A stretch of DNA of 59,554 bases from a virus, in the IMG/VR virus record IMGVR_UViG_3300001799_000004, positions 1 to 59,554 of that record. One strand, 5' to 3'. This document shows positions 17,888-37,195 of the stretch, piece after piece. Every line of letters starts with the position of its first letter. The first letter of the stretch is position 1. A program made the position numbers and the translations under genes. A model generated the notes under the pieces. It had not been told where the DNA came from. It was given only the letters and a program-made list of their open reading frames with translations, and did not search any database.

Positions 17888-18679
17888 ATGGAAAATCTAA
17901 ATTTGTTTAATTACAATGGCTTTCCAGTAAGCTTCAGGTCCAAAGATACTGAAGTAATGCTTAACGCAACGCAGATGGCCTCTGCATTCCGGAAACGGCC
18001 TGGGAAATGGTTAGAGCTGCCTTCTACTGAACAGTTCCTGTTGCGGTTGGAAGCTATCCGAAAAACGGATAGGTTAAAACTGATACAGACTATCAACGGC
18101 GTAGGGACATGGATGCATGAAGATGTGGCTTTGGAGTTTGCCCGGTGGCTATCCCCCAGTTTTGCAATCTGGTGTAATGACCGAATCAAAGAGCTTCTGA
18201 AGTTCAAAGCAACAGCCATCCACCCGGAAGATCTTCTGAACCCGGACTTCATCATAAACCTTGCGACTGAGTTAAAACGGGAGCGCGAAGAAAAGGAACG
18301 TTTCGCTCAAACGGCAATGCTTCAAGAAAAAGAACTGATTAAGGCGGCTCCAATGGTGCATTACTACAATAACGTTCTGCAGAGTGAAAGCCTTATCTCA
18401 ACAAATGTTATTGCAAAGGATATGGGAATGAGTGCAGTGACCTTGAATAGAATTCTGCATGGGCAGAAGATCATCTACAAATCAGGCAGAACATGGGTAC
18501 TTTATCATGAATACCAGAACAAAGGTTACACCCGGTCGAAAACGCACACATTCACTGACAACGAGGGGAATCTCAAGACAGCTGTAACAACTTACTGGAC
18601 TGAAAGGGGCAGGGCCTTTATTCAGTATATGGTTGGTAATGGATTTAAGAAAAGCGATGAAAAGGCGCATAGTGCGTAA
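17888..18679 (+). CDS. KilA-N antirepressor with ANT/KilAC C-terminal domain
   Basis: A 263-residue protein with two parts. Residues 1-100 are KilA-N-like (TEVMLNATQMASAF, TWMHEDVALEFARWLSPSFA, WCNDRIKELL). A helical linker leads to an ANT-like C-domain (AAPMVHYYNNVLQSES, VIAKDMGMSAVTLNRIL, FIQYMV). This pairing is typical of phage antirepressors that inactivate the CI-type repressor and trigger induction. The end of the early operon is a common place for it. Confidence 0.88.
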   Translation: MENLNLFNYNGFPVSFRSKDTEVMLNATQMASAFRKRPGKWLELPSTEQFLLRLEAIRKTDRLKLIQTINGVGTWMHEDVALEFARWLSPSFAIWCNDRIKELLKFKATAIHPEDLLNPDFIINLATELKREREEKERFAQTAMLQEKELIKAAPMVHYYNNVLQSESLISTNVIAKDMGMSAVTLNRILHGQKIIYKSGRTWVLYHEYQNKGYTRSKTHTFTDNEGNLKTAVTTYWTERGRAFIQYMVGNGFKKSDEKAHSA

Positions 18680-18706: not shown

Positions 18707-19144
18707 ATGTACACACAAATCATTAATAATCAGTTTAGCCCCTACCTAATTCCAGGCATCCCGACAGAAAAAGTTCCGGCAAACACAGGCGTATTTATCA
18801 AAAGAATCATTGACACCTGCAGCTGTATTTACAAGGCTACGGATCTTCCGGAGAAAAAACGAAAGCGTGATCGTGTTGATGCCAGGTATATGGCCATCCT
18901 CTTGATGGTGTTTCTTGTGGGTGAATCGTTGAGTAGTGCGGCTGCCAGATTCAAAAGGGATCATTCGACAGCAGTTCATGGTCTCAAGATCATGCAACGG
19001 CTTTACCAGACCGATCCGGTGACTCGACGAAATCTTTCTGCAGCACTCGATCAACTCGCGGTTCAATTATCTGCCCGGAATGAGATCAAGGAATTTCTGC
19101 TTTCAGATATGACAATCTCAAAATTTAGAAGGTTTTGTCTTTAA
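18707..19144 (+). CDS. Stand-alone DnaA domain IV-like DNA-binding protein
   Basis: A 145-residue protein. Its second half matches the DnaA C-terminal domain: ARYMAILLMVFLVGESLSSA, then FKRDHSTAVHGLK, where DHST is the box-contacting signature of DnaA domain IV. The AAA+ domain of DnaA is absent and the N-terminal third is not recognised. It may bind DnaA boxes at the phage origin or act as a transcription regulator. It is the last gene of the early operon, before the leftward cargo genes. Confidence 0.78.
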   Translation: MYTQIINNQFSPYLIPGIPTEKVPANTGVFIKRIIDTCSCIYKATDLPEKKRKRDRVDARYMAILLMVFLVGESLSSAAARFKRDHSTAVHGLKIMQRLYQTDPVTRRNLSAALDQLAVQLSARNEIKEFLLSDMTISKFRRFCL

Positions 19145-19372
19145 TGGACACAAAATCAACCGCCCGCGCGTAGCTTGGCTGTTGCTGACTGTTATCCGTC
19201 CTCGCTCTCGCTTTGCAATGACGGACGTATAATCCAACTACGAGGCGTAGCCGTTATTAAATCCTTGAGCAAAACATCCCCCTCTCCCCACTTCTGTTGT
19301 CTTTTTCAAGAAAACTAGTGGATGATTCATTACAGTAAAAATAAAACTCCAAAGCATATGCGCAATAAAATT
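19145..19372. other. Intergenic junction between early operon and T9SS cargo
   Basis: A gap of 228 bases between convergent genes. It contains GC-rich degenerate repeats (CGTAGC at about 19169 and 19250) and a long-armed inverted repeat, TCCGTC at about 19197 against GACGGA at about 19223, around CGCTCTCGCTTTGCAAT. It resembles dispersed intergenic repeats of host chromosomes rather than compact phage sequence. I see no clear T-run terminator. Confidence 0.4.
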
Positions 19373-21001
19373 TTAGTTTAACACTACTTTTCCTATAAAG
19401 GGAGAATTGTTTACGGAGTAAATTGTATAATAGTATATGCCCCTTGGCAAGTCACCAACGGGAATTGTGTAATCTTTTTGATTAAATGCCAGTTTTCGTT
19501 GAAACACTTCCACTCCAAGGGCATCGAAAAGACGTACAGATTCAATTCGCACATCAGCAATAGGACTTATATTTAGCTGATCATGTGCAGGATTGGGAAA
19601 AACACGTACGAATGCCTGCAATGTATCATAGTCAGGGATTGACTCATACTGCATTGCCAGTTCAGCTACCCTGAAGACAGGATTATAATAACTATTATTA
19701 CATCTCCAGTATGCGCTTTTGGTTCCGATAGCAACAACGTAATCAAAGTCGCTATTTTGCCACACACCCCGATAAAGGTATTCATCTCCCTCCTTGCCAT
19801 AGCAATACTGCCAGGTGAGTTCTCCATCTGAGTTTATTTTTGTGAACCAAACGTCTTTGGAATTACCCGGGGTAATCGTGTGAGAGCCCTCAACGTCCCC
19901 ATCTTTAGATGATGTCTCCCCAATAATCATGAATCCACCATCTGATGTTTTAAAGATGTTCCGGGCAAATTCTCTATAGGTACCTCCCAGACACTTTTGC
20001 CATATGAGGTTACCTGAAAAATCGATCTTGATTACCCATACATCGCCTCCATGACGGGGATCCCCGGGGTCGCCATGAAACCCGCTTACATCACCATCGT
20101 TTGACATGGTATATCCAAGAATAATATACCCGTCTTCTATCTCAATGACCTCATTGCCAAATTCATGATAGTTTCCTCCATAAGTTTGCTGCCATTCTAT
20201 CTGGTGATCTGAACTTAGCTTAACCACCCAAGAGTCAATATACATATAGCCATGAAAATTACAGGTCGTGTCGTAATTCCCCCCTCCCCAGCCATCCGTG
20301 CTTCCCACAACCATAAAACCTCCATCATTGGTTTGAATAATTGAGCCAGCATTCTCATAGCCAACACCACCAAGACTCATGGTCCACTGTTTGTCGCCTT
20401 CTGGACCTAGTTTCACCAACCAGTAATCCCAATTACCATGGTGATCCGTTATATCACCATCTTCAGAGGTGGATGAGGCAAGCAATACAATGCCACCGTC
20501 ACTCGTGACACAGGCCCCATTAAGGTAATCTCGGCCGGTTCCTCCCACAACACTTTGCCACATGATCTCCTGTTGGCTATTAATTTTCAACGTCCAGAGA
20601 TTTCCACCATCACCGGGCCATGGATTGTGTTCTATGTCACCATCAACAGAAGTTGTTCCTCCAACAATGTAGAAGGTTGACTCATTTACCTTCAAGATAT
20701 CGGTATAGCCAAAATCACCCTTACTCCCACCATAACATCGTTCGCTGATCAGGTTACCCTCCAGGTCAACATTGATCAGCCAGAGGTCTGTTCCCCCATG
20801 GTTGTGACTAATGTCCTCGTCCGTTGATTGAGTATCGCCAATTACCCAATAAGTATCACCGGCCCTGGTAATTCCATATGCTTCGTCCCATCCCGTACCA
20901 CCGTAGCACTGCTCCCATAATGGTTTAAACTCCTGGGCTTTAATATGAGTTGGTAAAAGACTTGCGAAAAACAATGTTAATAAAACAATACTAGTTTTCA
21001 T
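19373..21001 (-). CDS. Secreted beta-propeller-like protein with T9SS sorting domain
   Basis: A 542-residue protein with a signal peptide (first about 22 residues, ending HIKAQ). About eight imperfect repeats of 45-60 residues follow. Each has a GGT/GGN-type turn, a TSDGG or TNDGG step, an SxDGD segment and a DxWVxKL/I strand, as in surface proteins with propeller-like folds. The last 75 residues are a type A T9SS sorting domain (VFPNPAHDQLNI, GVEVFQRKL, GIYYYTI), which directs the protein through the type IX system to the cell surface. No enzyme motif is seen. Its last 147 coding bases are 89% identical, by my count, to the relic at 58397-58543 outside the prophage. Confidence 0.85.
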   Translation of the reverse strand: MKTSIVLLTLFFASLLPTHIKAQEFKPLWEQCYGGTGWDEAYGITRAGDTYWVIGDTQSTDEDISHNHGGTDLWLINVDLEGNLISERCYGGSKGDFGYTDILKVNESTFYIVGGTTSVDGDIEHNPWPGDGGNLWTLKINSQQEIMWQSVVGGTGRDYLNGACVTSDGGIVLLASSTSEDGDITDHHGNWDYWLVKLGPEGDKQWTMSLGGVGYENAGSIIQTNDGGFMVVGSTDGWGGGNYDTTCNFHGYMYIDSWVVKLSSDHQIEWQQTYGGNYHEFGNEVIEIEDGYIILGYTMSNDGDVSGFHGDPGDPRHGGDVWVIKIDFSGNLIWQKCLGGTYREFARNIFKTSDGGFMIIGETSSKDGDVEGSHTITPGNSKDVWFTKINSDGELTWQYCYGKEGDEYLYRGVWQNSDFDYVVAIGTKSAYWRCNNSYYNPVFRVAELAMQYESIPDYDTLQAFVRVFPNPAHDQLNISPIADVRIESVRLFDALGVEVFQRKLAFNQKDYTIPVGDLPRGIYYYTIYSVNNSPFIGKVVLN

Positions 21002-21057
21002 AACTGAAAATTAAATAGCAGTGGGCAAATGATTACCCACTGCTAAAATACAACAAA

Positions 21058-24000
21058 TCATCTCACTATAATTAATTTTCCCGGTACTGATCCATTTTTA
21101 CTGATCAGCACATAGACATATACACCTGAAAAAAGTTTGCCAGGTTGGTAAGAATAAATGCCTGTTGATGAATTGATCGAAAGAATATCAATTAAAGTAC
21201 CTTGTCCGGAATAAATCCTTATTTCAGCTTTTTCATTATTTTCAGGCAAGGAGTACACGAATTCAATCACATCACTTGCTGGGTTAGGTTTTGCAACAAT
21301 TTGAGCGGTTCTGGATACATTTGGTTCGGTAGCAGGCTTAGGTGTTGAGTTTTTCAAGTTATTTGACATATCAAGCTCGTTACAGTCCATGAAGTTATAC
21401 AAATTTCCATATGCGAACCCAAGGATACCTCTTGCTTGGGCTCCCCCCAGTCCTTGGCTGCTTTCTGCAATAAATTCCAAGTCTTCAAGTTCTATTTCAG
21501 AAAGCTCAAAAATACTTCGATCATCATTCAACCATCCGATCTGCATTTGTTTAAGGTCTGAATAGTATGTGTATTCTGCAGAGTCATAACCACTCAAAGG
21601 ATACATTGAAGGAAGCGTATCGAGCAAGTCCAATGCATTTTGGAACTCCCCGATGTGAATATACATGTCAATAATGTCTTGAGTAGAAGAAAAATTATTT
21701 AGCTCTTCCATCCAGGTTTTGTATAGGCCTGGATGCGCAATGGAATCTGATAGGTTACTTCTAATAATGTCATATGCGGCCCTTCGAGTAAGCATGTTAA
21801 AATGTGACACTTGTCCTTTTAACTTAAGGAGTTCGGATGAATCCAATAGCCCACCAACGCTATCTAATAGGTTCGAATATTGCAGGTAGCTAAGTTTTGC
21901 GGTTGAATAACTCGCTTCAGCTTGTTGGTATGCTGTATTACTTAACTTAATGTCATTATTCAAATAATGATCCGGGCACAGGTTCTGTAGATCAAGTTTC
22001 ACAGGGATAACTTGATAAACTTTCACAGGTTCCTCATTGCTAATATTTTCATTGTAAAAGTAATAGATTTCGTATGGTGCCCAATTATCAAAGTGGTGTG
22101 ATGCTGTAGATGAAAAAGTATTACCTGCAACATAACTTAAATTACCTTGATACTCTTGAATTCCAGATAGATTTTGCCCATGGACCGCAAAATCAACCTC
22201 ATTCTCCCGATTCAAATTACATAAATAGGTCAATCCGCTAAAGCGTTCACCTTCATAATTCTGCCCTTTTGCGTAATTCGCGGTAAACAGATTCACAAAA
22301 TCATTTTTGTAGATTTCATCATATTTATTGTTTGTATTTTTCGTTACGATCCCGTAATTACGATAAACCGCTGGTCCCTCGTTAATAAAAAATAAGTTGT
22401 TTTCGATAGCAAAGCGCTTGGAGTTGTCAAGCTGTATTCCAGTACTAGTGGCTTCGCTGCACCCAGGATGAGAACCTAATTCAAATGAATTATTAACAAC
22501 AACAGCATCTTCTACACTATTCAAGTGGATCCCATATCCGTTATTTGTGAAAACTCCGTCCTGGATCGAAATTAATGAATAGGTAGATACATTAGAAGAC
22601 ATGATTGCCTTATAAAAGCCATTAAATTCCGGTGTCACATAATCGCCTTTAGGGCATGGTACAGTGTTTGATTCACAAACACCACAAATATTAAAACCAG
22701 CATCAAATGATTGTATTCCATATACCGTAGAAGAACCTTCAATGTAATCATTGATAAATGTACAACCATGGAACTTAACTCCCTTTACTCCCCACATATA
22801 TACATGTTCAATATCAATATCCTGATACCCTGAGAAAGTGTTATCGAAAATAAATGTGCATTCTTTAAACTTACATTCATTGTCATATTCTATTGAGTTG
22901 AATATATTTTTATACCCTGATATTTCAATTGATCTTCTGTTATTTCTAAAAGTCGAATTCTTTGCAATAATTATTCCACCGCTATAACAACTACTATAAC
23001 CAATTCTCGTCCTTATTGCTGTCTGGGCGTTTTCAATTGTTGCATGGTCAAGAACAACTTTCCCTTGAGCCTGCGGATGCCCTGGGTAAGCATATTGGTG
23101 GTCATTGGGATTGCCCCAAACCTCAATACCTGACCAGGTGTCATTCTCTCTACCACAGTAAGGAATATGTGTGATTTTACCATTTTCTACAGTTAAGACA
23201 CCACCTGTTTTAACAATAATTTTTGTATCCTTCCCCATCATCAATTCTCCCGAAATCTTCAGGTTTACTCCACTCTCGATTATAATGTTTCTTGGAGAGT
23301 ATCTTCTGTTGGTCCAAACTTGGTTTTCAGTTACGTCTATTTCAGGTATGTAGTCAATGGCCTTGCAAACTGCTTGGTAAGTGTTCAACCTCCCAAATCC
23401 CATTTTCTCATTCCATAGGTTTTCATCGTATAGTACTCCACCTTCTTTATCTGCGGTAGTACTTAGAATATTCCTAACACTCCCTTCTTCTTCGACACCA
23501 CCATTAGAAAGATACGGGTTAACTGATAGCATTAAACCAATTGTTGCAGAAACCATTGGGGTTGAGAATGACGTACCAGAATTAACTACAGTTTGATAGT
23601 CATGTTTGATTAATTCTATATTTACACCCGGCGCCACTATCTCCATCTGCGCCCCATAACTAGATTGCTCCCACCATTCATCCAAATCTGTAGTTGCGCC
23701 TACAGCAATTACTAAATTGCTTCTTGCAGGATAATTAACATAATTGTAACCTGTGTTTCCAGAGGATGCGACCATAATTACCCCATTATCGTAAGCATTT
23801 TGAATAGCATCCTTGAGCACATCAATTTCTCCATGTGATCCAGAAGGCACACTTAGTGACATATTAATAACATTGGCCTTCTTATCAACTGCGTAATTGA
23901 TTGCGCTTTCAATCTCAGCAGTGAAAAAACTTTGACGTTGGTGGCATTCACCAAATTCATATTTCTGTTCAATATCAAGAACTTTGATTGGTAATATCTT

Positions 24001-24852
24001 CAATCCATAAAGTCCTGCATCAATGTCTCCACCTCCTATTCCATCAACAAGAGTTGAATTGTTAGCTTTTGCCCCAATAATACCGGCAACTCCATTTCCA
24101 TGCCAAAATTCATTTGTAGGTCTGACATCGTTATCAGATGTCTTAACAAAGGAGCAGTTTTCAATTAATTCAATATTATTAAAATCCCAACCTTTCATGT
24201 CATTAAGATAACCATTCCCATCTTCATCCTCATCATTTCCCTGCGGGTCATCATCAGTTAACCATGGATCAGAAAAGTTATGTTTAACAACATCATACTC
24301 ATTTTCTATCGCCCCGAAGTCATAATTATCCCAGCTTAGGCCTGCATCAATTACAGCAACAACAATATTAGTGTCACCCCGAGTCAAATTCCAGGCGCCA
24401 GGATTATTTTCATCATACCATACCCCGATGTTGTCAAGGTATGGATCAGCATTTTGGTTTTGTTGATCTTCCACCACTGGGATTGAATAGTAAAAATGAA
24501 TTGTTAAATTTTCGACAATCGGATCGTCAGAAATATCGTTGCAAATTGATACATAGTTACGTCCTACCGGTAGTAAATACTGTTTGTATTTACTGTTGAA
24601 CGTTCTAAATATTGTTAGGTTATTTTGCGTTTCAAAATAGCTAATCTGAGGACTTTGAATGATATTGCTGAACTTTACTGATACAATTGTGGAATCAATC
24701 AGGACCGTATCATATAATCCATAAATGTAATAATTCCCGTTAACATGCTGTATGGTATCATTACCAATTGTGAACTGGGTAGCAATAAGATTATTGCTCA
24801 CCAGGTACATACAGATCATTGCGATCAACTTAATCAATGTGTACTTTTTCAT
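21058..24852 (-). CDS. Secreted subtilisin-like (S8) protease with beta-helix region and T9SS sorting domain
   Basis: A 1264-residue exported protein. After a signal peptide and a short pro-region comes an S8 peptidase domain with the full triad: Asp 169 (VVAVIDAG), His 251 (WHGNGVAGI) and Ser 428 (SGTSFSTP), plus oxyanion Asn 366 (ASSGNTG). From about 520 to 930 there are repeated strands typical of a right-handed parallel beta-helix. A helical stretch follows, then a T9SS type A sorting domain at the end (PNPASDVIEF, GVYVYVL). It should be a surface or secreted protease. It lies 56 bases upstream of the beta-propeller-like gene on the same strand, so both may be co-transcribed. Such large T9SS cargo is unusual in a phage. 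Confidence 0.9.
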   Translation of the reverse strand: MKKYTLIKLIAMICMYLVSNNLIATQFTIGNDTIQHVNGNYYIYGLYDTVLIDSTIVSVKFSNIIQSPQISYFETQNNLTIFRTFNSKYKQYLLPVGRNYVSICNDISDDPIVENLTIHFYYSIPVVEDQQNQNADPYLDNIGVWYDENNPGAWNLTRGDTNIVVAVIDAGLSWDNYDFGAIENEYDVVKHNFSDPWLTDDDPQGNDEDEDGNGYLNDMKGWDFNNIELIENCSFVKTSDNDVRPTNEFWHGNGVAGIIGAKANNSTLVDGIGGGDIDAGLYGLKILPIKVLDIEQKYEFGECHQRQSFFTAEIESAINYAVDKKANVINMSLSVPSGSHGEIDVLKDAIQNAYDNGVIMVASSGNTGYNYVNYPARSNLVIAVGATTDLDEWWEQSSYGAQMEIVAPGVNIELIKHDYQTVVNSGTSFSTPMVSATIGLMLSVNPYLSNGGVEEEGSVRNILSTTADKEGGVLYDENLWNEKMGFGRLNTYQAVCKAIDYIPEIDVTENQVWTNRRYSPRNIIIESGVNLKISGELMMGKDTKIIVKTGGVLTVENGKITHIPYCGRENDTWSGIEVWGNPNDHQYAYPGHPQAQGKVVLDHATIENAQTAIRTRIGYSSCYSGGIIIAKNSTFRNNRRSIEISGYKNIFNSIEYDNECKFKECTFIFDNTFSGYQDIDIEHVYMWGVKGVKFHGCTFINDYIEGSSTVYGIQSFDAGFNICGVCESNTVPCPKGDYVTPEFNGFYKAIMSSNVSTYSLISIQDGVFTNNGYGIHLNSVEDAVVVNNSFELGSHPGCSEATSTGIQLDNSKRFAIENNLFFINEGPAVYRNYGIVTKNTNNKYDEIYKNDFVNLFTANYAKGQNYEGERFSGLTYLCNLNRENEVDFAVHGQNLSGIQEYQGNLSYVAGNTFSSTASHHFDNWAPYEIYYFYNENISNEEPVKVYQVIPVKLDLQNLCPDHYLNNDIKLSNTAYQQAEASYSTAKLSYLQYSNLLDSVGGLLDSSELLKLKGQVSHFNMLTRRAAYDIIRSNLSDSIAHPGLYKTWMEELNNFSSTQDIIDMYIHIGEFQNALDLLDTLPSMYPLSGYDSAEYTYYSDLKQMQIGWLNDDRSIFELSEIELEDLEFIAESSQGLGGAQARGILGFAYGNLYNFMDCNELDMSNNLKNSTPKPATEPNVSRTAQIVAKPNPASDVIEFVYSLPENNEKAEIRIYSGQGTLIDILSINSSTGIYSYQPGKLFSGVYVYVLISKNGSVPGKLIIVR

Positions 24853-25259
24853 AACGTTTTAATATTGGTTTGTAAAGAATTTATTAGCTAACTTGACAAC
24901 CAATACATCGGAGAGGCCCTAGCCGGGCCATTCTTTAGGTAGGATTTCATGCAGAAGATATTAAACGGGAAGAACTTACATCCTTAGTAACAAAACATCG
25001 TCAAAACGCACATCTAAAATTCGTCTTTTTTCAATATTGTTATTCAGTCTAAGTACAAATAACCTATGATATATTATATAGGTCCTCTTTTTCTCCCTTA
25101 TCATTGCCTTACTCTAAGGCTAGTCTATACTACCTTAATCCCTCCTGTAAAGTTTCCGTTTTAACCACTTCTTAACACGGATTTCCGTTCTAATTAACCG
25201 AATCCATTCTCCTGCTGCTCGGTTTTTATCCTTATTTACCTCCTGTGTTTGTGTGTGTC

Positions 25260-25355: not shown

Positions 25356-26762
25356 ATGGAACAATCGACAGGATTCCTGCTCATCCTTGCCTATTTCGTG
25401 GCCGTTTTTCTTATCACGCGGATGATCGGACGAAAGAGTTCATCAAAACTTGATTATTTACTTGCAAACAGGGCTATACCAGGATGGTTGGCAGCTTTTT
25501 CAATCGCTGCAACATGGGTGTGGGCTCCCTCAATGTTTGTTGCCTCAGAGAAAGCTTTCACTTCAGGATGGGTAGGCGTTTTCTGGTTTGTAGTCCCCAA
25601 CGTGCTTACCCTTGTCATATTTGCCTACTTCGCAACATGGATGCGAAAGAAATATCCTGATGGGTGGACATTCTCGGATTATATCCGGGCCAAATACAGC
25701 AACCGCACCCATAACCTTTACCTTGTTGAAAGCTTCGGACTGCAAACACTCAGCCTTGCCGTGCAACTGCTTGCAGGAGCAACCATCATGTGGAAGATTA
25801 CCGGACTGCCTTTCTTGCTGACTACGATCCTGCTTGCAATCATTCCTTTGATTTACACTTTCTCCAAAGGACTCCGTGCAAGTGTCATTACCGACTACTG
25901 GCAGATGTTGTGGATAATTGTAGTCCTGCTGCTCGGTTTACCTTTTATGTTTATCAATGGCGGAGGCATGGAAACCCTCATTGAGGGATTATCAGGAAAA
26001 GCCGGCGATATAACAGGCATGTTCAACGGCAAAGGGCTGGCTGTAACACTTGCCTTTGGAATTCCCACTACCATAGGTCTGCTCTCCGGTACATTCGGGG
26101 ACCAGATGTTCTGGCAAAGGGTCTTTGCAATAAAACAGGGTCAGGTTAAAAAAGCTTTCCTCTGGGCAGCTGTAATATTCGCCTGTGTGCCCATTTCCTT
26201 AGCCATCTTTGGGTTCTTTGCTGCAGGTAAAGGTTTGGATATTCAGGACACACAACTTGTCAATGTTGGAGCCGTGATTGCTTTTACCCCTAACTGGTTC
26301 CTGTACCTGTTCATGGTGATGATCCTTTCAGGGCTTATATCAACTGTTGACAGCATCATATGTGCTGTTTCATCCGTCACTGGCCATGACCTCTACAACA
26401 GGATTAAAAAGCTTGACCTTATCGATGAAGTGGAGTTTGCAAAATGGTCAATGGTGTTTGTTACAATACTGGCCATCCTTATTGCTAACATTCCCGGGCT
26501 GAAGATACTTCACCTGTTTCTGATATATGGCACTCTGAGAGCCTCGGTGATGCTCCCTACTGCCTTTGCGATCAAAGGTATCAGAATGAGTGAACGGGGA
26601 TTGTTCTATGGCTTACTTACCAGTATGGTTGTTGGGCTTCCAATATTCGCCATTGGCAATTTCTCCGCCAACACAGTCCTAATCGTCACCGGCTCACTCT
26701 TTACCATCCTTGCCTCCGGAATCATCTCAATATCCCTGAAAGATGAAACCGCTAAAGTTTAA
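25356..26762 (+). CDS. Sodium:solute symporter (SSS family)
   Basis: A 468-residue membrane protein with about 13 hydrophobic helices. The SSS pattern is clear: KLDYLLANRAIPGWLAAFS near the first helices, WVWAPSMFVASEKAF in the sodium-site helix, SGTFGDQMFWQRVFAIK in the middle, and SGLISTVDSIICAVSSV, which matches the family's STxDS sodium-site helix (vSGLT helix 8). Length and motif order are those of a complete transporter. The substrate cannot be read. It leads a rightward chain that runs into phage genes and terminase. A transporter here is rare, and a nutrient-uptake or receptor-blocking role is inference. Confidence 0.88.
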   Translation: MEQSTGFLLILAYFVAVFLITRMIGRKSSSKLDYLLANRAIPGWLAAFSIAATWVWAPSMFVASEKAFTSGWVGVFWFVVPNVLTLVIFAYFATWMRKKYPDGWTFSDYIRAKYSNRTHNLYLVESFGLQTLSLAVQLLAGATIMWKITGLPFLLTTILLAIIPLIYTFSKGLRASVITDYWQMLWIIVVLLLGLPFMFINGGGMETLIEGLSGKAGDITGMFNGKGLAVTLAFGIPTTIGLLSGTFGDQMFWQRVFAIKQGQVKKAFLWAAVIFACVPISLAIFGFFAAGKGLDIQDTQLVNVGAVIAFTPNWFLYLFMVMILSGLISTVDSIICAVSSVTGHDLYNRIKKLDLIDEVEFAKWSMVFVTILAILIANIPGLKILHLFLIYGTLRASVMLPTAFAIKGIRMSERGLFYGLLTSMVVGLPIFAIGNFSANTVLIVTGSLFTILASGIISISLKDETAKV

Positions 26763-27013: not shown

Positions 27014-27325
27014 ATGTACGACTTTGAGTCAACCAGGGTTAAACCCGATACACAGCTCGTAGCTGAAGTCCAAAAAGAATTCAAGCACCTTGGCCGGATA
27101 AGACTCAAGCCAGGCCACAGCCTTTTTGCCTTTAACACCAAAACAACACACCTGAAAAAGGTTGAAATTCAATCACAGGTAATGATTGACGTCAAAGGGC
27201 AAAAGAAAGAAACCAAAAGAGCATACCAGGAACCTGACACGGTCTACGTCACGGCACTCAACGCCAGGAACGCATTACGCAAAATTATTAATAGTTTCAA
27301 TCACCTAAAATCTAATCAAACATGA
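27014..27325 (+). CDS. Conserved small phage protein
   Basis: A 103-residue basic protein with alternating strands and charged loops (RVKPDTQLVAEVQKEFKHLG; YVTALNARNALRKIINSFN). It resembles phage proteins of unknown function found before terminase genes. The stop overlaps the next start by 4 bases. Confidence 0.55.
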   Translation: MYDFESTRVKPDTQLVAEVQKEFKHLGRIRLKPGHSLFAFNTKTTHLKKVEIQSQVMIDVKGQKKETKRAYQEPDTVYVTALNARNALRKIINSFNHLKSNQT

Positions 27326-27921
27326 AAAGGTTCTTTTCTATTCTGATGATCCTGCTTGCGACAGTCAGCCTATCCGGGCAGGTTTATGACGGTATCACGC
27401 AACCGACAAGGTTCAGATACTGGCTTCCGCTGACAACCTCTGTAAACACCCCGGGATCGCTTACCGCTGCCCCTTTTATGGGTTACAAGGTTCAACCTGC
27501 CAACTGGATATCGTTCACACCGATACTCCAGTACAACTTCAACCGTGAAGCGGCCATGCCTCAGCTGTGGCTTAACGTGAACTATCAGCAAAAGTATTAC
27601 CTGCTCTTCAGGTCCATCTATGACCTCAAGACAGAAGCATTCAGCGAGACGGTTTCCGGTACGGTCAAACTCAATAGTTATATGGTTGACTTTACTTGGG
27701 ATAACCTATATCGTAGTGACGGGTTTTTAATCAATGATCGATTACAGATCCTTGCCGGCTATGCATGGAAGCATCTGGTACTAAATGCCGGGTACTCGAT
27801 AAGGGACCGACCGGGATTTGTGACCAATGCACGTGTGAAGCTTACCAGCCTGTCGTGGCTACAATTCAGGTACGATTCCGGTACAGATACATTCACTCTT
27901 TCAACAGCAATACATATCTGA
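27322..27921 (+). CDS. Predicted exported beta-barrel-like envelope protein
   Basis: A 199-residue protein with a clear signal peptide (MKRFFSILMILLATVSLSGQ, cleavage near residue 20). Amphipathic strands of about 10 residues follow, separated by short turns, with many Tyr and Trp (WISFTPILQYNF, LWLNVNYQQKYYLLFRS, LQILAGYAWKHLVLNAGYS). This suggests an outer-membrane beta barrel of about 8 strands. It overlaps the PP-loop gene by one base (TGATG). Phage-made outer-membrane proteins can block receptors, which is one possible role. Confidence 0.65.
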   Translation: MKRFFSILMILLATVSLSGQVYDGITQPTRFRYWLPLTTSVNTPGSLTAAPFMGYKVQPANWISFTPILQYNFNREAAMPQLWLNVNYQQKYYLLFRSIYDLKTEAFSETVSGTVKLNSYMVDFTWDNLYRSDGFLINDRLQILAGYAWKHLVLNAGYSIRDRPGFVTNARVKLTSLSWLQFRYDSGTDTFTLSTAIHI

Positions 27922-28730
27922 TGCAGAAAGTTCTGACACCAGGCAGAAAGCAGACTGCCAGCAATGAGGCTTTTCAAAGACTCTGGGACAACATCGACAA
28001 AGTTGTTTCGCGGGACCATATTGAAAGCCTCGTTGCTGATGCTGTTTTAACAATCAGATCAAAAACCGCTAGCAAGAAAACAGGTTATGCCTGGTCTGGT
28101 GGAAAAGACAGCATCGCCCTGCAGGTCGTCTGTGAGCTCTCGGGAATAAGAAGCTGTGTTATTGGCTTGTCACAAGCACTCGAATATCCCCACTACCTGA
28201 GTTGGATTCATCTGAACAAGCCCGCAGGACTTGTCACATGGGATGCCAACATTGGATATCAATGGCTTCTACAAAACCCTCATATGGTCTTTCCTGAGGA
28301 TTCAAAGCACCTTGCAACATGGTATTCCCTTATTCAGCATGCAGCACAAAAGGATTTTTACAAACATGCCAGTCTTGACATTATTTGTCTTGGCCGCAGG
28401 CATCAGGACGGTAACTATACCGGTTCCGGTGGTCAGAACATCTACACCGATAAGTATGGTATAACCCGCTTTTCACCTATCGCACACTGGAAGCACGAAC
28501 ATGTGTTGGCAATATGCCACTATTACAAGAACAGGAACATACCCCCAATCTATAACGACCCTCAGGGGTGGATCAACGGCACAGGCGTGTGGCCGGTACA
28601 GACATCGAACCTCGGCCGTAAGCATTCCTGGGAACTGCTTTACCAAATCAGCCCGGAGACATTACTCATTGCGGCAAACTATTTCAATGAAGCAAAATCA
28701 ATACTCCAAAGTCATGGCAAAGCAAGCTAA
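27921..28730 (+). CDS. PAPS reductase-like PP-loop ATPase (first copy)
   Basis: I start at ATG 27921, coupled to the previous stop in TGATG; an upstream frame to 27765 lies inside the beta-barrel gene. The 269-residue protein has the PP-loop SGGKDS (residues 59-64) and later CLGRRHQDGN and WKHEHVLAICHYY, as in PAPS reductase-like phage proteins. Members include DndC-type enzymes that add sulfur to DNA and tRNA-thiolation proteins. A ParB-like gene follows at once, giving a PP-loop/ParB pair that is repeated downstream. Confidence 0.82.
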   Translation: MQKVLTPGRKQTASNEAFQRLWDNIDKVVSRDHIESLVADAVLTIRSKTASKKTGYAWSGGKDSIALQVVCELSGIRSCVIGLSQALEYPHYLSWIHLNKPAGLVTWDANIGYQWLLQNPHMVFPEDSKHLATWYSLIQHAAQKDFYKHASLDIICLGRRHQDGNYTGSGGQNIYTDKYGITRFSPIAHWKHEHVLAICHYYKNRNIPPIYNDPQGWINGTGVWPVQTSNLGRKHSWELLYQISPETLLIAANYFNEAKSILQSHGKAS

Positions 28731-29292
28731 AGTCAAACATGAAGAAACAACCCTTAGCCTATCGTTATTGAAGGACTTCCCGGGAAATCCCAACACACAT
28801 ACACATGCACAAATAGATGCTCTGGTTCAGAGCATGGAACGTTACGGCCAGTATTACCCGATCATCTGTGATGAAGATTATCAGATACTCTGTGGCCATG
28901 GAAAACGTCTGGCCCTTGAGAAAAAAGGCGAGAAAACGGCCAAAGTCACTATCATCCGTGGACTCACTGACAAACAGAAGATGAAGCTTCTCATTGAAGA
29001 CAATAAGATTCAGTCAATGAGTTACGTGAACTTCACGGAGGTTGAGAAAATCATCAAACAGATCGGAGAACTTGACATCATTGGCTTTTCACCTGAGTAC
29101 CTCGACACCATCATTAACGAGATTTCACCGGACAATATGGGAGTTGATTTCTCAAAGCCACCGCAAAGAGGTGACAACTTCACGCCTGAACAGGAAGCAA
29201 CTGTTGATGCACAGTTTGAAAATATCGAAGCCGGAATGAGCGGGGTAAGAACAATGACATGCCCACACTGCGGAGAACTAATCAATTTCTGA
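28714..29292 (+). CDS. ParB-like nuclease-domain protein (first copy)
   Basis: A 192-residue protein starting at ATG 28714, 17 bases inside the PP-loop gene. It has the ParB-like fold: LLKDFPGNPNTHTHAQID, LVQSMERYGQYYPIICDED and the ILCGHGKRLALEKKGEK box, then a helical part (FTEVEKIIKQIGELDIIGFS). The C-terminus ends in MTCPHCGELINF, a Cys pair. Small ParB-like proteins beside PAPS reductase-like genes are common in phages; they may be ATP/CTP-using kinases or regulators rather than nucleases. Confidence 0.82.
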   Translation: MAKQAKVKHEETTLSLSLLKDFPGNPNTHTHAQIDALVQSMERYGQYYPIICDEDYQILCGHGKRLALEKKGEKTAKVTIIRGLTDKQKMKLLIEDNKIQSMSYVNFTEVEKIIKQIGELDIIGFSPEYLDTIINEISPDNMGVDFSKPPQRGDNFTPEQEATVDAQFENIEAGMSGVRTMTCPHCGELINF

Positions 29293-29294
29293 TC

Positions 29295-29816
29295 ATGGAA
29301 AAAGACCTGTTTAAGCCACTCAGGGAAATGCAGTTCGTCAACAGGGAGTTGATACGCCCCAATGACTACAACCCAAACAAAGTTCTTGAAAAGAACCTCA
29401 AACTGTTAATGCAAAGCATCCTGACTAATGGGTTCTGTTTCCCAATAGTGATCCGACCCGACTACACTATCATTGATGGATTCCACCGCTGGCTTGTTTC
29501 TGGAAGGGAGCCGCTTAAAACAATGCTGGGCGGAAAGATTCCAGTTGTGATAGTGGCGCATGAGGACGAGAGCAAGAATATGTACGGTACTGTCACCTTT
29601 AACAGGGCTCGTGGAACACACTTGCTTGAACCGATGGAAAACATAGTCAAGTCACTCCTGGACAAAGGCAAGACTGTGGATGAAATTTCGAAAGAAATTG
29701 GCATGAGCCGCGAGGAGATCTTCCGGCTTTCGAAGATTGACAGGGAGACATTCCTGAAGACTGTTATCAAGCGACAGACTTTCAACAAAGCAGAGGTTCT
29801 GAGGAGGTATCAATGA
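29295..29816 (+). CDS. ParB-like protein, IbrB type (second copy)
   Basis: I start at ATG 29295, two bases after the previous stop. The 173-residue protein has RPNDYNPNKV, LMQSILTNGFCFPIVI, IIDGFHRWLVSG (the DGxHR box of the IbrB/ParB-like group), then YGTVTFNRARGTHLLEPME and an HTH-like end (DEISKEIGMSREEIFRL). It overlaps the start of the DUF3440 gene by 4 bases. IbrB/IbrA pairs are known from E. coli prophage-like elements, where they activate eib genes. Confidence 0.82.
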   Translation: MEKDLFKPLREMQFVNRELIRPNDYNPNKVLEKNLKLLMQSILTNGFCFPIVIRPDYTIIDGFHRWLVSGREPLKTMLGGKIPVVIVAHEDESKNMYGTVTFNRARGTHLLEPMENIVKSLLDKGKTVDEISKEIGMSREEIFRLSKIDRETFLKTVIKRQTFNKAEVLRRYQ

Positions 29817-30895
29817 GGACTAAGGCGATAGATGTTGATGTGGTTACAGCTGCGGAAAGAAGGGTTCTTGAATCCTTTAACAAGCACAAATACATCAGCA
29901 TGTCTTTCTCCGGGGGAAAGGACTCTATCTGCATGGCTGATATTGTCATAAAGACAATGCAGAAATACAACATTGACTTCAGTAGGTTGATTGTTGTTTT
30001 CTACGATGAAGAAGGTATTTACCCGGATTTTGAGCAGATCGTCATAGAATGGCGCTCCCTGTTCCTTTCCCTGGGAGCAAAGTTCTACTGGTTTTGCTTA
30101 CCCATCAAGCACTACAACTGCTGCAACCGTCTTGAAAATGACGAGAGCTTCATCTGTTGGGAACCCGGCAAAGAAGATCTGTGGATTCGTCCTATGCCCA
30201 AATTTGCCATCAGGCACCATAAGGACTTCTCTCTTGGCATGACTTATCAAGTCTTTTCAAAGTATCTTTTTCAGGATATATACCAGATGGTAGGCCTGAG
30301 AGTCTATGAATCTGTACAAAGGAGACAATCTATTGCCGGGCAAAGCAAATCAAAGTTCCTCTACCCAATCTATGACTGGAGAGATAATGACGTATGGCTC
30401 TATATAGAGCGAAACAACCTGAAGTTTCCGGAAACCTATCTGTACCTCTACAAGACAGGTGTACCCATAAACAAACTGCGTATCAGTCAATTTTTTAGCA
30501 TTGACACAATCAAGAGCCTTCCAAAGGTACTCGAGTTTTATCCAAACCTATTCGAGAGAATTGTCAAAAGAGAGCCCAATGCAGACCTAGTAATGTTGTA
30601 TTGGGAAACGGATATGTTTCGGTCCTCACGACAGGATGATTCTTTTGATATCCGCAAAGACTATCGGGTAATCCTAAAGGAGGAAATCAAGAAAGCATCC
30701 CAACACCCAGACCAGTATCCCGGGTATAAACAAGTGAAGAAACTATTTGCCCGAGTAACACCCAAGACCACATCAGACACATGCCGTAGGATTTATCAGA
30801 TTTTAATTGCGGGTGACCCAAAGAACAGGACTGTCAGGGTAGTTACCGGGAAGCTTTTAGAGGATTCTAAAGACTATCCCGATGAGGCAAGGTGA
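29813..30895 (+). CDS. DUF3440 PAPS reductase-like protein, IbrA type (second copy)
   Basis: A 360-residue PP-loop protein with SFSGGKDSICM (PP-loop residues 33-38), YDEEGIYPDF, WRSLFLSLGAKFYWFCLPIK and KFLYPIYDWRDNDVWLYIE, where the last is the C-terminal domain of the IbrA/DUF3440 type. It forms a coupled pair with the ParB-like gene before it (ATGA). The two PP-loop proteins here differ in length and family, so the four-gene block is not a simple tandem duplication. A nucleic-acid modification or transcription-control role is inferred from family and position before terminase. Confidence 0.85.
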   Translation: MRTKAIDVDVVTAAERRVLESFNKHKYISMSFSGGKDSICMADIVIKTMQKYNIDFSRLIVVFYDEEGIYPDFEQIVIEWRSLFLSLGAKFYWFCLPIKHYNCCNRLENDESFICWEPGKEDLWIRPMPKFAIRHHKDFSLGMTYQVFSKYLFQDIYQMVGLRVYESVQRRQSIAGQSKSKFLYPIYDWRDNDVWLYIERNNLKFPETYLYLYKTGVPINKLRISQFFSIDTIKSLPKVLEFYPNLFERIVKREPNADLVMLYWETDMFRSSRQDDSFDIRKDYRVILKEEIKKASQHPDQYPGYKQVKKLFARVTPKTTSDTCRRIYQILIAGDPKNRTVRVVTGKLLEDSKDYPDEAR

Positions 30896-31295
30896 AAGAT
30901 TATCGAAAAAGAAGAAAAAGGCCAAGCTGCTTGACTGTCTCCGGGAGACTTCCGGAATTGTCGCATACGCCTGTGAGAAGGCAGGTATCAGCAGGGTCAC
31001 TTATTACAATTGGTGCAAAGAGGATATTGAGTTCAAAGGCAAGGCCGAGGATATACAGGAGCTGCAGATTGATGTGGCCGAGGCTGCATTACTCAAGAAA
31101 ATCAAGAATGAGGACACAACAGCTATAATTTTCTACCTCAAGACCAAGGGAAAAAACAGAGGCTACAGCGAACGGCATGAAATCGGAGGCGTAAACGGTG
31201 CACCAATCACCATGGATGTGGACACAAACCAACTGGGAGAGGACGAGAGAAAACTGTTGCTCAAAATAGCAGAAAGTCTCAATGTTAACGGATAA
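30882..31295 (+). CDS. Terminase small subunit
   Basis: A 137-residue protein with a basic start, then an HTH (GIVAYACEKAGISRVTYYNW CKED in order) and a helical multimerisation region (DVAEAALLKKIKNEDTTAII). This is the phBC6A51-type terminase small subunit that recognises pac/cos DNA. It overlaps the DUF3440 gene by 14 bases and the large subunit by 14 bases, the usual arrangement. Confidence 0.85.
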   Translation: MRQGERLSKKKKKAKLLDCLRETSGIVAYACEKAGISRVTYYNWCKEDIEFKGKAEDIQELQIDVAEAALLKKIKNEDTTAIIFYLKTKGKNRGYSERHEIGGVNGAPITMDVDTNQLGEDERKLLLKIAESLNVNG

Positions 31296-32754
31296 TGTTA
31301 TCAGGATGGCACTAAGTGTACAGGCTAGTGAATGCAGAAAAGATTTCTTCTACTTTGTGAGGACTTTCTGGGAAGTCATTATCAAGGAAGAACCGGTCTA
31401 TAACTGGCATATTGAGTTTCTGTGCCAGGAGTTGCAGGAACTCTCTAAATCCATTGTAGCACGTCAACCCAAACCTTATGACCTCATCATTAACATTCCC
31501 CCGGGTACAACCAAATCAACCATCGTGACGGTTATGTGGCCATCCTGGTTGTGGACTCAGGATCCAGCCTTGAGAGTCATCACAAATTCTTATTCAGCAG
31601 ACCTTTCTATTGATCATGCATCCAAGTCAAAGGACATCATTACAAGCGACAGGTACAAACTACTGTTCCATGAGATAAAGATCAGGATAGATAAGTCAGC
31701 AAAAGGGAGTTATGAGAACACCAGGACCGGGGCCCGGTACTCAACCTCAACAGGTGGCACGATCACTGGCAAGCATGGACACATTATAATCAATGACGAC
31801 CCACTGAACCCAAAACAGGCTACCTCAGACAGCTTGAGGCTTGCGGCCAACGAACACACCAAAACCCTTTCATCACGTAAGGTAAACAAAGAAAACACGC
31901 CAGTTGTCACCATCATGCAGCGTCTTCATGAGGACGATGTAACTGGTTTTCTGCTCAAAAAGAAAATAGAAAATATCAGGCACATCTGCCTACCAGCCGA
32001 AGTATCCGAAACTGTAAAACCTCCGGAATTGAAGGAGAAATACATAGATGGTTTTCTCGATCCGGTAAGATTATCACGTAAAGCTCTTGACGAAGCAAAG
32101 GTTGACCTTGGTAGCAAGGGATATGCCGGACAGTACGATCAGTCACCGACAGTTGAGGGTGGTAACATCATCAAAGAGGAATGGTTCAGGAAGATATCCC
32201 TGGCTCATTTTCTCGCTATTCGTGGCCGGGCACCGGTACATTTCTTTCTCGATACAGCCTATGACGAAAAGAAGAAAAAGTCAGACAACGACCCCTCAGG
32301 GATTATGGCCACGACCTACGTTAACAATGCACTGTTCATATTTGACGCCAGAAAGCTATACAAGGAGTTCCCAGACCTTATTAAGTTCCTGCCGGGTTAC
32401 CTCAGTGGAAACAATTACGATTCGCGCTCAACCCTTCGGATTGAACCAAAAGCCAACGGAAAAAGCGTCATACAACAACTCAAACGGGAAACAAAGCTTA
32501 ATGTTACCGAAACCCCATCCCCATCCGACAGCAAGGCGACCAGGTTAAACGCTGCTTCACCCTCAGTTGAATGTGGCCGGGTGTACCTTGTAGAGGGCGA
32601 CTGGAACGAATCATTCATTGATGAGGTTTGCGGCTTTCCCCTCAAGACACATGATGAATACGTGGACTTACTATGCTACGCCATTGACTATTACATAAGC
32701 GGCAAGATAGAGCTGCCCGAAGACCTTGATAAAACTTCACTCGGATTTCTTTAA
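31282..32754 (+). CDS. terL: Terminase large subunit
   Basis: A 490-residue packaging motor. The ATPase has a viral Walker A (IPPGTTKST, Lys 78) and Walker B (HIIINDDP, Asp 172-173), with coupling-motif-like TIMQRL after it. The C-terminal nuclease has an RNase H-like Asp (VHFFLDTAYDE) and later acidic residues (HDEYVDLLCYAIDYY). It cuts and pumps phage DNA into the prohead. Complete length, with portal next. Confidence 0.95.
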   Translation: MLTDNVIRMALSVQASECRKDFFYFVRTFWEVIIKEEPVYNWHIEFLCQELQELSKSIVARQPKPYDLIINIPPGTTKSTIVTVMWPSWLWTQDPALRVITNSYSADLSIDHASKSKDIITSDRYKLLFHEIKIRIDKSAKGSYENTRTGARYSTSTGGTITGKHGHIIINDDPLNPKQATSDSLRLAANEHTKTLSSRKVNKENTPVVTIMQRLHEDDVTGFLLKKKIENIRHICLPAEVSETVKPPELKEKYIDGFLDPVRLSRKALDEAKVDLGSKGYAGQYDQSPTVEGGNIIKEEWFRKISLAHFLAIRGRAPVHFFLDTAYDEKKKKSDNDPSGIMATTYVNNALFIFDARKLYKEFPDLIKFLPGYLSGNNYDSRSTLRIEPKANGKSVIQQLKRETKLNVTETPSPSDSKATRLNAASPSVECGRVYLVEGDWNESFIDEVCGFPLKTHDEYVDLLCYAIDYYISGKIELPEDLDKTSLGFL

Positions 32755-32766
32755 TACCCAAATACC

Positions 32767-34179
32767 ATGAACCTGATAAGAGTACTTTTAAACAAAATGA
32801 ACAGCGCCCTGAATATGCAGCAGGGATTTGAGGAACTTCTCAAAAACAAGGATATCGACAATGTTATCCGCAAGATGCAGGACCGTTCCGCAGATGTCGA
32901 TAAAGCAATTAAGGATTATGATGTCAAAACGCATAATATCATGTCCAGACCCGATAAGATCATTAAGGGCAAAGACGGACGGACTATCCGTGTACAGAAA
33001 CAATGGAGGCTTCCGATTCCTTACCAGAGGTTTATCAATGAAATTGCCCTTGTTTTTCTTTATGGCCAGCCTGTGAAATTCTCAATGGTTTCAGCGGGGA
33101 CTGAGGAGGCTTACTCGATGTTCAAGGATTTGGTTAAATCCACACGGTTTGACAGCCGGATCCGTCAATGTAAACGAATTGCCGGAGCAGAAACGGAGAG
33201 CGCACTTCTTCTGCATGTGTACAAAGACGATGAGGGCAACAAACCGGATGCCTTGATAAAGGTTCTTGGAAAAAGTCTCGGGGATGATATCAGGCCAATG
33301 TTTGACCGCTTTAACCGCATGATTGCATTCGGCCATGGATATTACATCAATGAGGGCGGGTATACTACTTATTACTTCGATATCTATATGAAGAAAAAGA
33401 TATACCGGTGCAAGAAAGAAGACCTTGGGTGGACCGTGGTAGAAGAAGAAAACCTGATTGGCAAGATACCGGTGATTTATTTCCGACAGGAGAAAGAGCA
33501 TGAAGGGGTAGAACCTCTTATCGAGAGGGAAGAATATATAGCAAGCATTACGGCTGATGTGAACGACTATTTTGCTTCACCGGCAGTAAAAGCTACAGCG
33601 GACGTCATCAAAAACATTCCCGAGAAAGAGGAACCCGGCAAGATATTCATTCTGGATAGCAAAGACAGTGATGTAAGTTACCTGACTATTGAAGCCGCCC
33701 CTGAGTTGAAGAAACAGGAAATTGACTTTCTGCAGAAACACATCCTGAGCAAGACCTTCACCCCTAACATTGACTTTGAGAACATGAAAGCCCTGAGTAA
33801 TGTTTCCGGAAAGGCACTCAAGCAGATGATGATCCTTGCGGAGATCAAGGCAAACAAACATAAAGAATCCCATGATGAACTTGTTGACCGTTTTATCAGT
33901 TTGTTGATCGCTGCAATTGCGAACGTCCTTGAAATAAAGCTAAAAGATCAATGCTCCAAAATGATCATTGATGCTCAGTTCCAGAGTCCGTTCAATGAAG
34001 ATATTGCCGAGATGATCACCAACCTTGTCAGTTCAATTGATGCCGGGATGATGAGCGAGGAAACCGGCCGGGAACTTAATCCACTTATCAGCGACAGCTC
34101 TTCTGAAACTTCGCGGATTGATGCCGAAAGACAGAGAAAGAGGGAAACAAGTGGTGACATATTTGGACAAGGCTATTAA
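32767..34179 (+). CDS. Portal protein (SPP1 gp6-like)
   Basis: A 470-residue protein right after terminase. It has the layout of SPP1-type portals: a basic alpha/beta start, the wing region (PIPYQRFINEIALVFLYGQP), a central beta part (KIPVIYFRQEKEHEGVEP) and a helical clip/crown end (GKALKQMMILAEIKANKHKE). It forms the dodecameric vertex through which DNA enters. Assignment is by pattern and gene order. Confidence 0.9.
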   Translation: MNLIRVLLNKMNSALNMQQGFEELLKNKDIDNVIRKMQDRSADVDKAIKDYDVKTHNIMSRPDKIIKGKDGRTIRVQKQWRLPIPYQRFINEIALVFLYGQPVKFSMVSAGTEEAYSMFKDLVKSTRFDSRIRQCKRIAGAETESALLLHVYKDDEGNKPDALIKVLGKSLGDDIRPMFDRFNRMIAFGHGYYINEGGYTTYYFDIYMKKKIYRCKKEDLGWTVVEEENLIGKIPVIYFRQEKEHEGVEPLIEREEYIASITADVNDYFASPAVKATADVIKNIPEKEEPGKIFILDSKDSDVSYLTIEAAPELKKQEIDFLQKHILSKTFTPNIDFENMKALSNVSGKALKQMMILAEIKANKHKESHDELVDRFISLLIAAIANVLEIKLKDQCSKMIIDAQFQSPFNEDIAEMITNLVSSIDAGMMSEETGRELNPLISDSSSETSRIDAERQRKRETSGDIFGQGY

Positions 34180-34181
34180 TC

Positions 34182-35231
34182 ATGTACGATCTTGACCAGA
34201 ATAGTGCCCTGTTCCATAGAACTGAAGCGCACGCAAACAAGACACGTCTGGCTTATCTGGCAGCTATAAGGCGTTTGATTGCACTTGTTAAAATGATGGA
34301 CATTGATCCAAATGTACCATTCCGGTTCTCGGACTACCCAAAGCTGGACAAGGAGGCAAAGTTGATTTTCGAAATGCTTTATCGCGACATCTCAGGAGTT
34401 GTGATTAAAGGGATAGAAAAAGAATGGCAGGAGGCCAATGCTACCAATGACAACCGTGCTGAACGTGTTTTCAAACTGAAGAAGATCGGCAAGGTGCCTG
34501 AGGCATATCTTCAGCGTAATCTGGCTGCCAGGGATGCTTTTATTGCCAGAAAGACCGGCAAGGATGGGCTGATTGTAAGCAAACGTATCTGGAACTATGT
34601 AGGGCAGTTCAGGCAAGAGATGGAGATGGCTCTTGATATTGGCCTGTCAGATGGCCGGTCAGCTGCTGAATTGTCGCGTGATATCCGAAAGTACCTCAAC
34701 GAACCAGAAAGACTTTACCGGAGGGTACGGGACCACAGGGGCGTACTTCAGCTCTCGAAGAATGCGAAAGCTTACCATCCCGGGCAAGGTGTTTACAGGT
34801 CAAGTTACAAGAACGCCATGCGATTGACCAGGACAGAAACCAATATGGCATATAGAACAGCTGACCATAAACGCTGGCAGCAACTACCATTCATTGTTGG
34901 CTTTGAGGTGCGGCTAAGCAACAATCACCCTTCCATCGATATTTGTGATGACCTAAAAGGAAAATATCCAAAAGAGTTCATTTTTAATGGATGGCATCCT
35001 CAATGCCGGTGCCATGTGGTGGCCATACTCCCTACTGATGAAGAGTTTGAGGATATGCAGCAGCGATTACTTGATGGCGAGGGTGATATTGCGAGCCAGA
35101 GGAAAGTTGTAAGTGTTCCGGATGGGTTCAAAAAGTGGCTGAAAGACAACAAAGAACGCTACAAATCGGCTAAGGGGAAAGGCACATTACCATACTTCAT
35201 AAATGATAACCCTATCTTTGCCCGTGTGTAA
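34182..35231 (+). CDS. Head morphogenesis protein (SPP1 gp7/Mu F-like)
   Basis: A 349-residue protein 2 bases after portal. It carries the Mu F/SPP1 gp7 motif with the NGWHPQCRCHVVAIL metal-like signature at about residues 271-285. The preceding ARTET-like segment reads LTRTETNMAYRTADHKRW. Such proteins associate with the portal during prohead assembly. A strong terminator follows, which ends this gene block. Confidence 0.9.
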   Translation: MYDLDQNSALFHRTEAHANKTRLAYLAAIRRLIALVKMMDIDPNVPFRFSDYPKLDKEAKLIFEMLYRDISGVVIKGIEKEWQEANATNDNRAERVFKLKKIGKVPEAYLQRNLAARDAFIARKTGKDGLIVSKRIWNYVGQFRQEMEMALDIGLSDGRSAAELSRDIRKYLNEPERLYRRVRDHRGVLQLSKNAKAYHPGQGVYRSSYKNAMRLTRTETNMAYRTADHKRWQQLPFIVGFEVRLSNNHPSIDICDDLKGKYPKEFIFNGWHPQCRCHVVAILPTDEEFEDMQQRLLDGEGDIASQRKVVSVPDGFKKWLKDNKERYKSAKGKGTLPYFINDNPIFARV

Positions 35232-35782: not shown

Positions 35783-37195
35783 CTAACAATACAGGACTTC
35801 ATCATTAAATATTTTGATTGCTTCTTGCTCTTTGTAATACGCTTCTGCTCGTAATTTGTTCGCATTTAACGCAAGGTCATTAATTTGTTGTTGTGCGTTT
35901 TCGTTTTTCAAAATTGGTATCGGAACTTCAGCTAAATGTTCTACTTCAATTTCATCTACAACTGCACCGTAAGTCAAACGTTCGATAAGTACTTTACCGT
36001 AATCCGATTGCAACCAAATGTATAAGTAACCTGCAATATCTTTTAATTTCGGAACGACTCTCAATACGTGTTCAGACATAGCCCATTTATTCCAATGTTC
36101 AGGTATAATTTGTGTTTTTCCGATAGTTCCGCTTCTTGTAATTGCAATCATATTTTCTTCAATAAACAAATCTTTATCAACTCTTTTACTGTGCAAATGA
36201 GTTGAAAGATACTTCTTAGGTGTTGGGTCTAACTCTAAAATTTGCTTGCCACCGAGAAAGATAGTTCCGTGGTCACTTTCAACATAGTTTCGCTTAAACC
36301 TCCCAGCTTGGATTATTTTTTTGGAAACATTTATATCGTCAAGTCGCTTTATTGTCGCGCCTTCGTCAAATAAACAATCCAAAATGCTTGACACAACTGG
36401 GTTGTGGTAAGAACCGTCAAAACGATTATTCAATAAATCTAAACGAACGGAAAATGTTCTTACTTCAGAATTTTTATCATAAAGATCGGGCAGCAAATTT
36501 TCAACAGGGGGCAACTTCAATTCATTAATGAGTAATCTTTCAGCTTGGTCAATTAGTTCATTTGCTTGGTCTCTTAAGTCAAACGACTGAATGACTAAAT
36601 TGTGGATTTTTAATCTTATTGGCTTTGAAGGATAGGGCACATGAACTTCTTCCAAATGTTCAGGCTCAATGTGTTTAATTACTGCACCGTAGTTATTTGT
36701 TGTAATTAAACTTTGTCCTGTTTCGCTAATAAGGTAAGCATAGACAAAACCAATATCTTCCTTGTCTTTAACGTTTATCCTCAACAAATCATGGCTGAAT
36801 ATTTGTCTATCAAATGAATTGTTTACTATAGTACATTTGCCAATTGTTCCAGAACAAGTCATCAAGATTTGCCCTTTACTTACACGTAACGCTTCAATAT
36901 CGGTATTCGTGAGGTCTGAAATGTATTTGTATGGCTTAGGATAAAGTTCCAAGATTTGTGAAGGCTGGAAAATAGGGTAGTTTGATTTTTCAATATAAAT
37001 TCTTTTGAAACGTTCTCTATGATAAGCCAAAGCCAAACCATTAGCACCACAAACTTTCTTTATTTCCCACTTGCAGTTTTTTAAAACTTCCTTTGCTTTC
37101 AGCGCTTCAACATTAAAAACATTTGCTTCAAAACGAAGTTTAGCAGCAAAAACTTCTTCAATGCTTACGCTTGCATATTTTAAAGTTTCTACCAT
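35783..37195 (-). CDS. Restriction-modification specificity subunit (two TRDs)
   Basis: I start at the Met 9 codons into the open frame (37195, MVETLKYASV), which overlaps the methylase stop by 7 bases; an earlier ATG at 37219 would overlap by 31. The protein has two HsdS-type target-recognition half-domains. Both have the ILELYPKPYKY/ILELDPTPKKY pattern, an SGTIGK turn and a YLIS/YIWL segment, each followed by a helical spacer. It directs the fusion enzyme upstream to its target. A full-length two-domain S protein implies a bipartite asymmetric target. Confidence 0.88.
   Translation of the reverse strand: MVETLKYASVSIEEVFAAKLRFEANVFNVEALKAKEVLKNCKWEIKKVCGANGLALAYHRERFKRIYIEKSNYPIFQPSQILELYPKPYKYISDLTNTDIEALRVSKGQILMTCSGTIGKCTIVNNSFDRQIFSHDLLRINVKDKEDIGFVYAYLISETGQSLITTNNYGAVIKHIEPEHLEEVHVPYPSKPIRLKIHNLVIQSFDLRDQANELIDQAERLLINELKLPPVENLLPDLYDKNSEVRTFSVRLDLLNNRFDGSYHNPVVSSILDCLFDEGATIKRLDDINVSKKIIQAGRFKRNYVESDHGTIFLGGKQILELDPTPKKYLSTHLHSKRVDKDLFIEENMIAITRSGTIGKTQIIPEHWNKWAMSEHVLRVVPKLKDIAGYLYIWLQSDYGKVLIERLTYGAVVDEIEVEHLAEVPIPILKNENAQQQINDLALNANKLRAEAYYKEQEAIKIFNDEVLYC

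Follow-up and report, generated by a model that had tools for sequence, protein, structure and literature searches.

The locus considered here raises the question of why a temperate phage should carry two large genes for proteins tagged for the type IX secretion system (T9SS), and what its host might gain from them. The sequence analysed (the window), a virus record of 59,554 nt from IMG/VR, encodes an integrase, terminase, portal protein, major head protein, tape-measure protein and endolysin.

Prophage, attachment site and tagged genes

The features on which the argument rests are listed below; L002 is the nearest related phage, and G199 a bacterial genome.

1-1224, plus strand: tyrosine integrase (phrog_1, E 5.3e-15)
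17888-18679, plus strand: KilA-N/antirepressor phage gene (profile search)
18707-19144, plus strand: left flank of the slot, a phage gene with a DnaA C-terminal HTH domain, conserved in relatives (PF08299, E 1e-8)
19114-25181, no strand: exchanged block (homology to L002 ends at 19113 and restarts at 25182)
19373-21001, minus strand: T9SS cargo 2, beta-propeller protein of 542 aa with putative signal peptide and type A sorting domain
19397-19603, minus strand: type A T9SS sorting domain of the propeller protein (PF18962, 45.1 bits, E 6.6e-13, DNA search)
20936-21001, minus strand: putative signal peptide at the start of the propeller protein, MKTSIVLLTLFFASLLPTHIKA, followed by Q (read from the sequence)
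21058-24852, minus strand: T9SS cargo 1, predicted subtilisin-like (S8) protease of 1264 aa with sorting domain (profile searches, residue check)
21067-21288, minus strand: type A T9SS sorting domain of the protease (PF18962, TIGR04183)
23392-24372, minus strand: Peptidase_S8 domain, protein residues 161-487 (PF00082, E 5.7e-35)
24346-24348, 24100-24102 and 23569-23571, minus strand: codons of the catalytic triad D169, H251 and S428, respectively (residues checked)
25356-26762, plus strand: right flank of the slot, SSF sodium:solute symporter gene (PF00474, E 1.3e-30; phrog_20720, E 4e-117)
30882-35231, plus strand: terminase small and large subunits, portal and MuF-like head protein (PHROGs)
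58271-58316, plus strand: attR, the prophage/host junction, 46 bp identical to the 3' half of tRNA-Gly(CCC) (intact tRNA and empty site in G199)
58317-59554, no strand: host chromosomal DNA with a T9SS-tail remnant and an AbiEii gene

This flank recurs in genome G199 (1284 bases, 98.8% identical), where the tRNA is uninterrupted and the prophage missing from the site; G199 is thus a near-identical strain with an unoccupied integration site, and positions 58317-59554 are host DNA. The window thus combines an integrase, an att repeat and a site that is empty elsewhere, and as judged from sequence the virus is a prophage of an uncultured member of the Bacteroidales, inserted into the chromosome at tRNA-Gly(CCC); its attL falls outside the record. 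A related prophage, L042, is also integrated next to tRNA-Gly(CCC). The AbiEii nucleotidyltransferase gene (58721-59554, minus strand) lies in the host DNA by the attachment site.

The initial annotation had described two leftward genes with type A sorting domains, one of them encoding an intact S8 triad, and the open reading frames, profile matches and residue check bear this out. D169, H251 and S428 of the larger product sit in the family motifs AVIDAG, WHGNG and GTSFS, so that the gene is predicted to encode a subtilase of peptidase family S8. Its tail scores 27.9 bits (E 1.7e-6) against TIGR04183, for which the cut-off is 23 bits. The Por_Secre_tail match (PF18962, cut-off 27 bits) falls slightly under the Pfam cut-off in hmmscan (2.2e-5) and exceeds it in the DNA search (30.9 bits). 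The N-terminus, read by eye, resembles a signal peptide leader. A simple search upstream of position 24852 for a Bacteroidota promoter found no TTG/TAnnTTTG pair.

The sorting tail of the propeller protein is the stronger of the two (at the protein level, Por_Secre_tail 40.9 bits, E 2.5e-10; TIGR04183, E 2.2e-7), and in both proteins the Por_Secre_tail domain occupies the extreme C-terminus. The AxA|Q site of the propeller leader agrees with the Q-rule for Bacteroidota (PMC10653852). A PDB search with a profile of propeller homologues matched beta-propellers (CylK) and T9SS tails (8glj, 8glk). The single-sequence AlphaFold model is weak (pLDDT 53); its best Foldseek match, the CylK propeller, is consistent with the profile result.

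An exchange slot between early and packaging genes

Both cargo genes are read against the neighbouring phage genes and, as the initial annotation had it, lie between early and late operons: the KilA-N/antirepressor and DnaA_C-like genes are on the left, and the packaging genes on the right. Since the cargo genes look host-like, as does the adjoining symporter gene, the region could in principle be an assembly chimera, or a host island beside the prophage, with the symporter as a host gene marking the edge of recombination. The symporter, however, was found at 28 viral and nine genome loci, the viral copies being 49-95% identical to it, and is a core gene of this phage group despite its host-like appearance. 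In L002 it is 95% identical to that of the window, and phage homology reaches both edges of the block. Besides, an analogous T9SS gene occurs in mid-prophage in a 614-kb contig. A chimera or host island is therefore rejected as very improbable, and the symporter is rejected as a recombination edge. The comparison indicates that early and packaging modules enclose a slot whose content is swapped as one block. The symporter gene also heads an operon running to the terminase, and the urea transporter DUR3 is among its nearest solved structures (E 1e-19).

The initial annotation had proposed to look for a stable cassette in related prophages. The protease/propeller pair was found in no other phage searched, and a search of viral contigs found no relative of either protein, so that this cassette is known from one phage only; the slot and its kind of cargo, in contrast, are shared with relatives. 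The two nearest relatives, L002 and L038, hold a different T9SS-tagged protein there, an endonuclease I. The L002 nuclease (1091 aa) matches PF04231 with E 2.9e-78, and its T9SS tail scores 27.4 bits against TIGR04183 (cut-off 23); its neighbour in the slot is a putative abortive infection gene (PF16872, E 7.9e-22; AbiP, 5e-8). L038 is a prophage in the 614-kb Bacteroidales contig, with 54-bp tRNA-Arg repeats at both ends and host DNA on both sides, and its slot, in the middle of the prophage, contains the homologous nuclease. The two nucleases are 83% identical, and a dN/dS of 0.087 at a dS of 1.26 points to strong purifying selection. Identity to the host homologues compared is at most 56%, apart from one partial host match of 306 aa at 68%; together with the 83% identity between phages, this would fit long residence in phages. 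The slot of more distant relatives holds other genes, and no T9SS tails were detected in 75 further phage records (27 nearer and 48 further, one of them in both lists, and many of them fragments).

Origin of the cassette

Bacteria of the host's family have protease and propeller genes next to each other on their chromosomes, arranged as in the phage (L160, L161 and L163, with fragments in L060), which argues that the pair was captured from hosts as a unit. The chromosomal pairs are about 40-50% identical to the phage copies, and those of L160, L161 and L163 are surrounded by ordinary host genes; two of these protease genes, in L160 and L161, are broken into two frames, perhaps through assembly error or decay. 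T9SS-tailed, mycosin-like subtilases of Bacteroidales (for example in G043 and G068, and L158, an intact gene of G199) share with the window protease the S8 domain, the region following it and the type A tail, and several genomes have a propeller gene next to them, as in the window. They differ in being chromosomal, the window copy residing on a mobile element, and are mostly 37-48% identical to it. G199 has no close copy of the phage protease, its best match being 37% identical.

The host DNA past attR retains, at 58370-58534 (plus strand), the last 50 or so codons of a T9SS tail, perhaps the scar of an earlier element at the tRNA. At the DNA level this remnant is 90% identical to the tail-coding end of the propeller gene in the phage, and the copy in phage-free G199 is 88% identical; at least that tail, if not the whole gene, thus either derives from the resident host lineage or has recombined with it. 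Such similarity suggests a recent capture or recombination, and weakens the case for a long-term benefit of the cassette. On the host chromosome carrying L042, three tandem T9SS propeller genes (L059:12171-18167) lie about 5 kb past the tRNA-Gly prophage end.

The tail match would also suit a host segment that had landed by chance at a tolerant place and is carried along unselected, as would the occurrence of the cassette in a single phage and the low GC3 of the protease gene (0.32, as against 0.50 in the symporter and terminase genes). A passive passenger is nevertheless quite unlikely: both open reading frames are intact across 5.5 kb with all catalytic residues present, the alternative T9SS cargo of the slot is under strong purifying selection, and two separate T9SS cargoes would hardly come to share one slot by chance.

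Predicted role and comparison with known phages

The reading we prefer, with a probability of roughly 0.7, is that the window contains a lysogenic-conversion (moron) cassette, i.e., that a temperate Bacteroidales phage carries two T9SS cargo genes captured from hosts. The cassette lies within a prophage and varies between relatives, and it is presumably dispensable for phage growth because relatives without it exist. The prophage would express protease and propeller protein, both would cross the inner membrane via Sec, and their type A tails would deliver them to the T9SS translocon of the host itself, to be anchored at the surface or released. A lysogen would thereby gain an extracellular proteolytic and binding capacity missing from the uninfected strain; infection thus probably brings new enzymes to the host surface, and the gain might lie in nutrition, in competition or in keeping out other phages. 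As to the translocon, SprA is encoded in seven of the eight genomes holding related phages, five of them with more than 100 tailed proteins. In the eighth, G031, SprA and such numbers of tails are both missing; its phage contig measures just 6.4 kb and is possibly mis-binned. Counted against a conversion cassette is that bacteria of the family have proteases and nucleases of these kinds in their genomes anyway; the nuclease family occurs in 124 of 173 genomes.

Lysogenic conversion had been the interpretation of the initial annotation, too. The comparative evidence (tRNA prophage, empty site, T9SS in related hosts, T9SS-tagged slot in relatives) all fits it, but the cassette itself is in no other phage searched. 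A wider reading, which we put forward tentatively and hold to be somewhat less than an even bet, is that of a family of temperate Bacteroidales phages that reserve one slot for exchangeable T9SS cargo of host origin, and whose prophages act as vehicles by which bacteria trade surface enzymes (protease/propeller operon, nuclease), the carried propeller having a sorting tail like that of the resident host.

Alternatively, the surface protease, like the nuclease in relatives, could serve superinfection exclusion by shaving receptors or destroying incoming phage protein or DNA, to the protection of lysogen and prophage. Each enzyme is a plausible barrier, anti-phage-like genes such as the putative abortive infection gene of L002 occur in the slot of relatives, and exclusion was proposed for the cargo of Cryophage (PMC7468147). 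The homologues of the cargo, however, are ordinary host genes for which no link to defence was seen, and we consider exclusion rather unlikely.

The notion that T9SS genes are rare in phages holds, but they are not unprecedented. Cryophage, described in 2020, encodes T9SS-tagged endoglucanase, GH39 and PA14 proteins, and use of the host T9SS was proposed (PMC7468147). By its description it resembles the window in being a Bacteroidetes phage with several cargo genes that bear type A tags and differ from one phage variant to the next, but it has a circular 76-kb genome known from metagenomes (PMC7468147), whereas the window and its relatives are prophages integrated at tRNA genes, with att sites and adjoining host DNA, carrying an S8 protease and a propeller protein, or endonuclease I in the relatives. 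The crAss-BACON cluster 2 gut phages (2019) encode T9SS sorting domains upstream of head genes; these belong to BACON-repeat proteins, and the passages of PMC6949934 consulted describe no protease. Subtilisin-like proteases of Bacillus phages such as BSP12 and Goe3, and of phrog_3677, share with the window protease a phage-borne S8 catalytic domain, at about 30% identity and limited to that domain; the tail region was matched by no PHROGs family. Phage-borne T9SS cargo has thus been reported before. New are its occurrence in integrated prophages, backed by att sites and an empty site in a host; the apparent uptake by a phage of a two-gene unit that is conserved in hosts and whose protease is intact; and a slot with, on the present comparison, two kinds of T9SS cargo, selection being shown for one.

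Integrated prophages, with att sites and an unoccupied host site, show what metagenomic phage genomes had shown, that phages apparently exploit a Bacteroidota-specific secretion system via tagged enzymes. Few cases of lysogenic conversion are known in the phylum; the cassette adds a well-delimited candidate that can be put to the test, and prophage cargo offers a route for T9SS cargo to move between bacteria.

Further regions of the window differ in their conservation. A conserved protein of 199 aa with a signal-peptide-like leader, encoded at 27322-27921, is without match in Pfam, NCBIfam and PHROGs. Ahead of the terminase, two PAPS-reductase-like and two ParB-like genes (27765-30895) make up a block that all close relatives conserve. 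A second variable region (35783-39126) lies between the MuF-like gene and the capsid genes; here it contains type I-like methyltransferase and specificity genes, which are also similar to mad2/mad5 of MADS, and in relatives it contains other genes.
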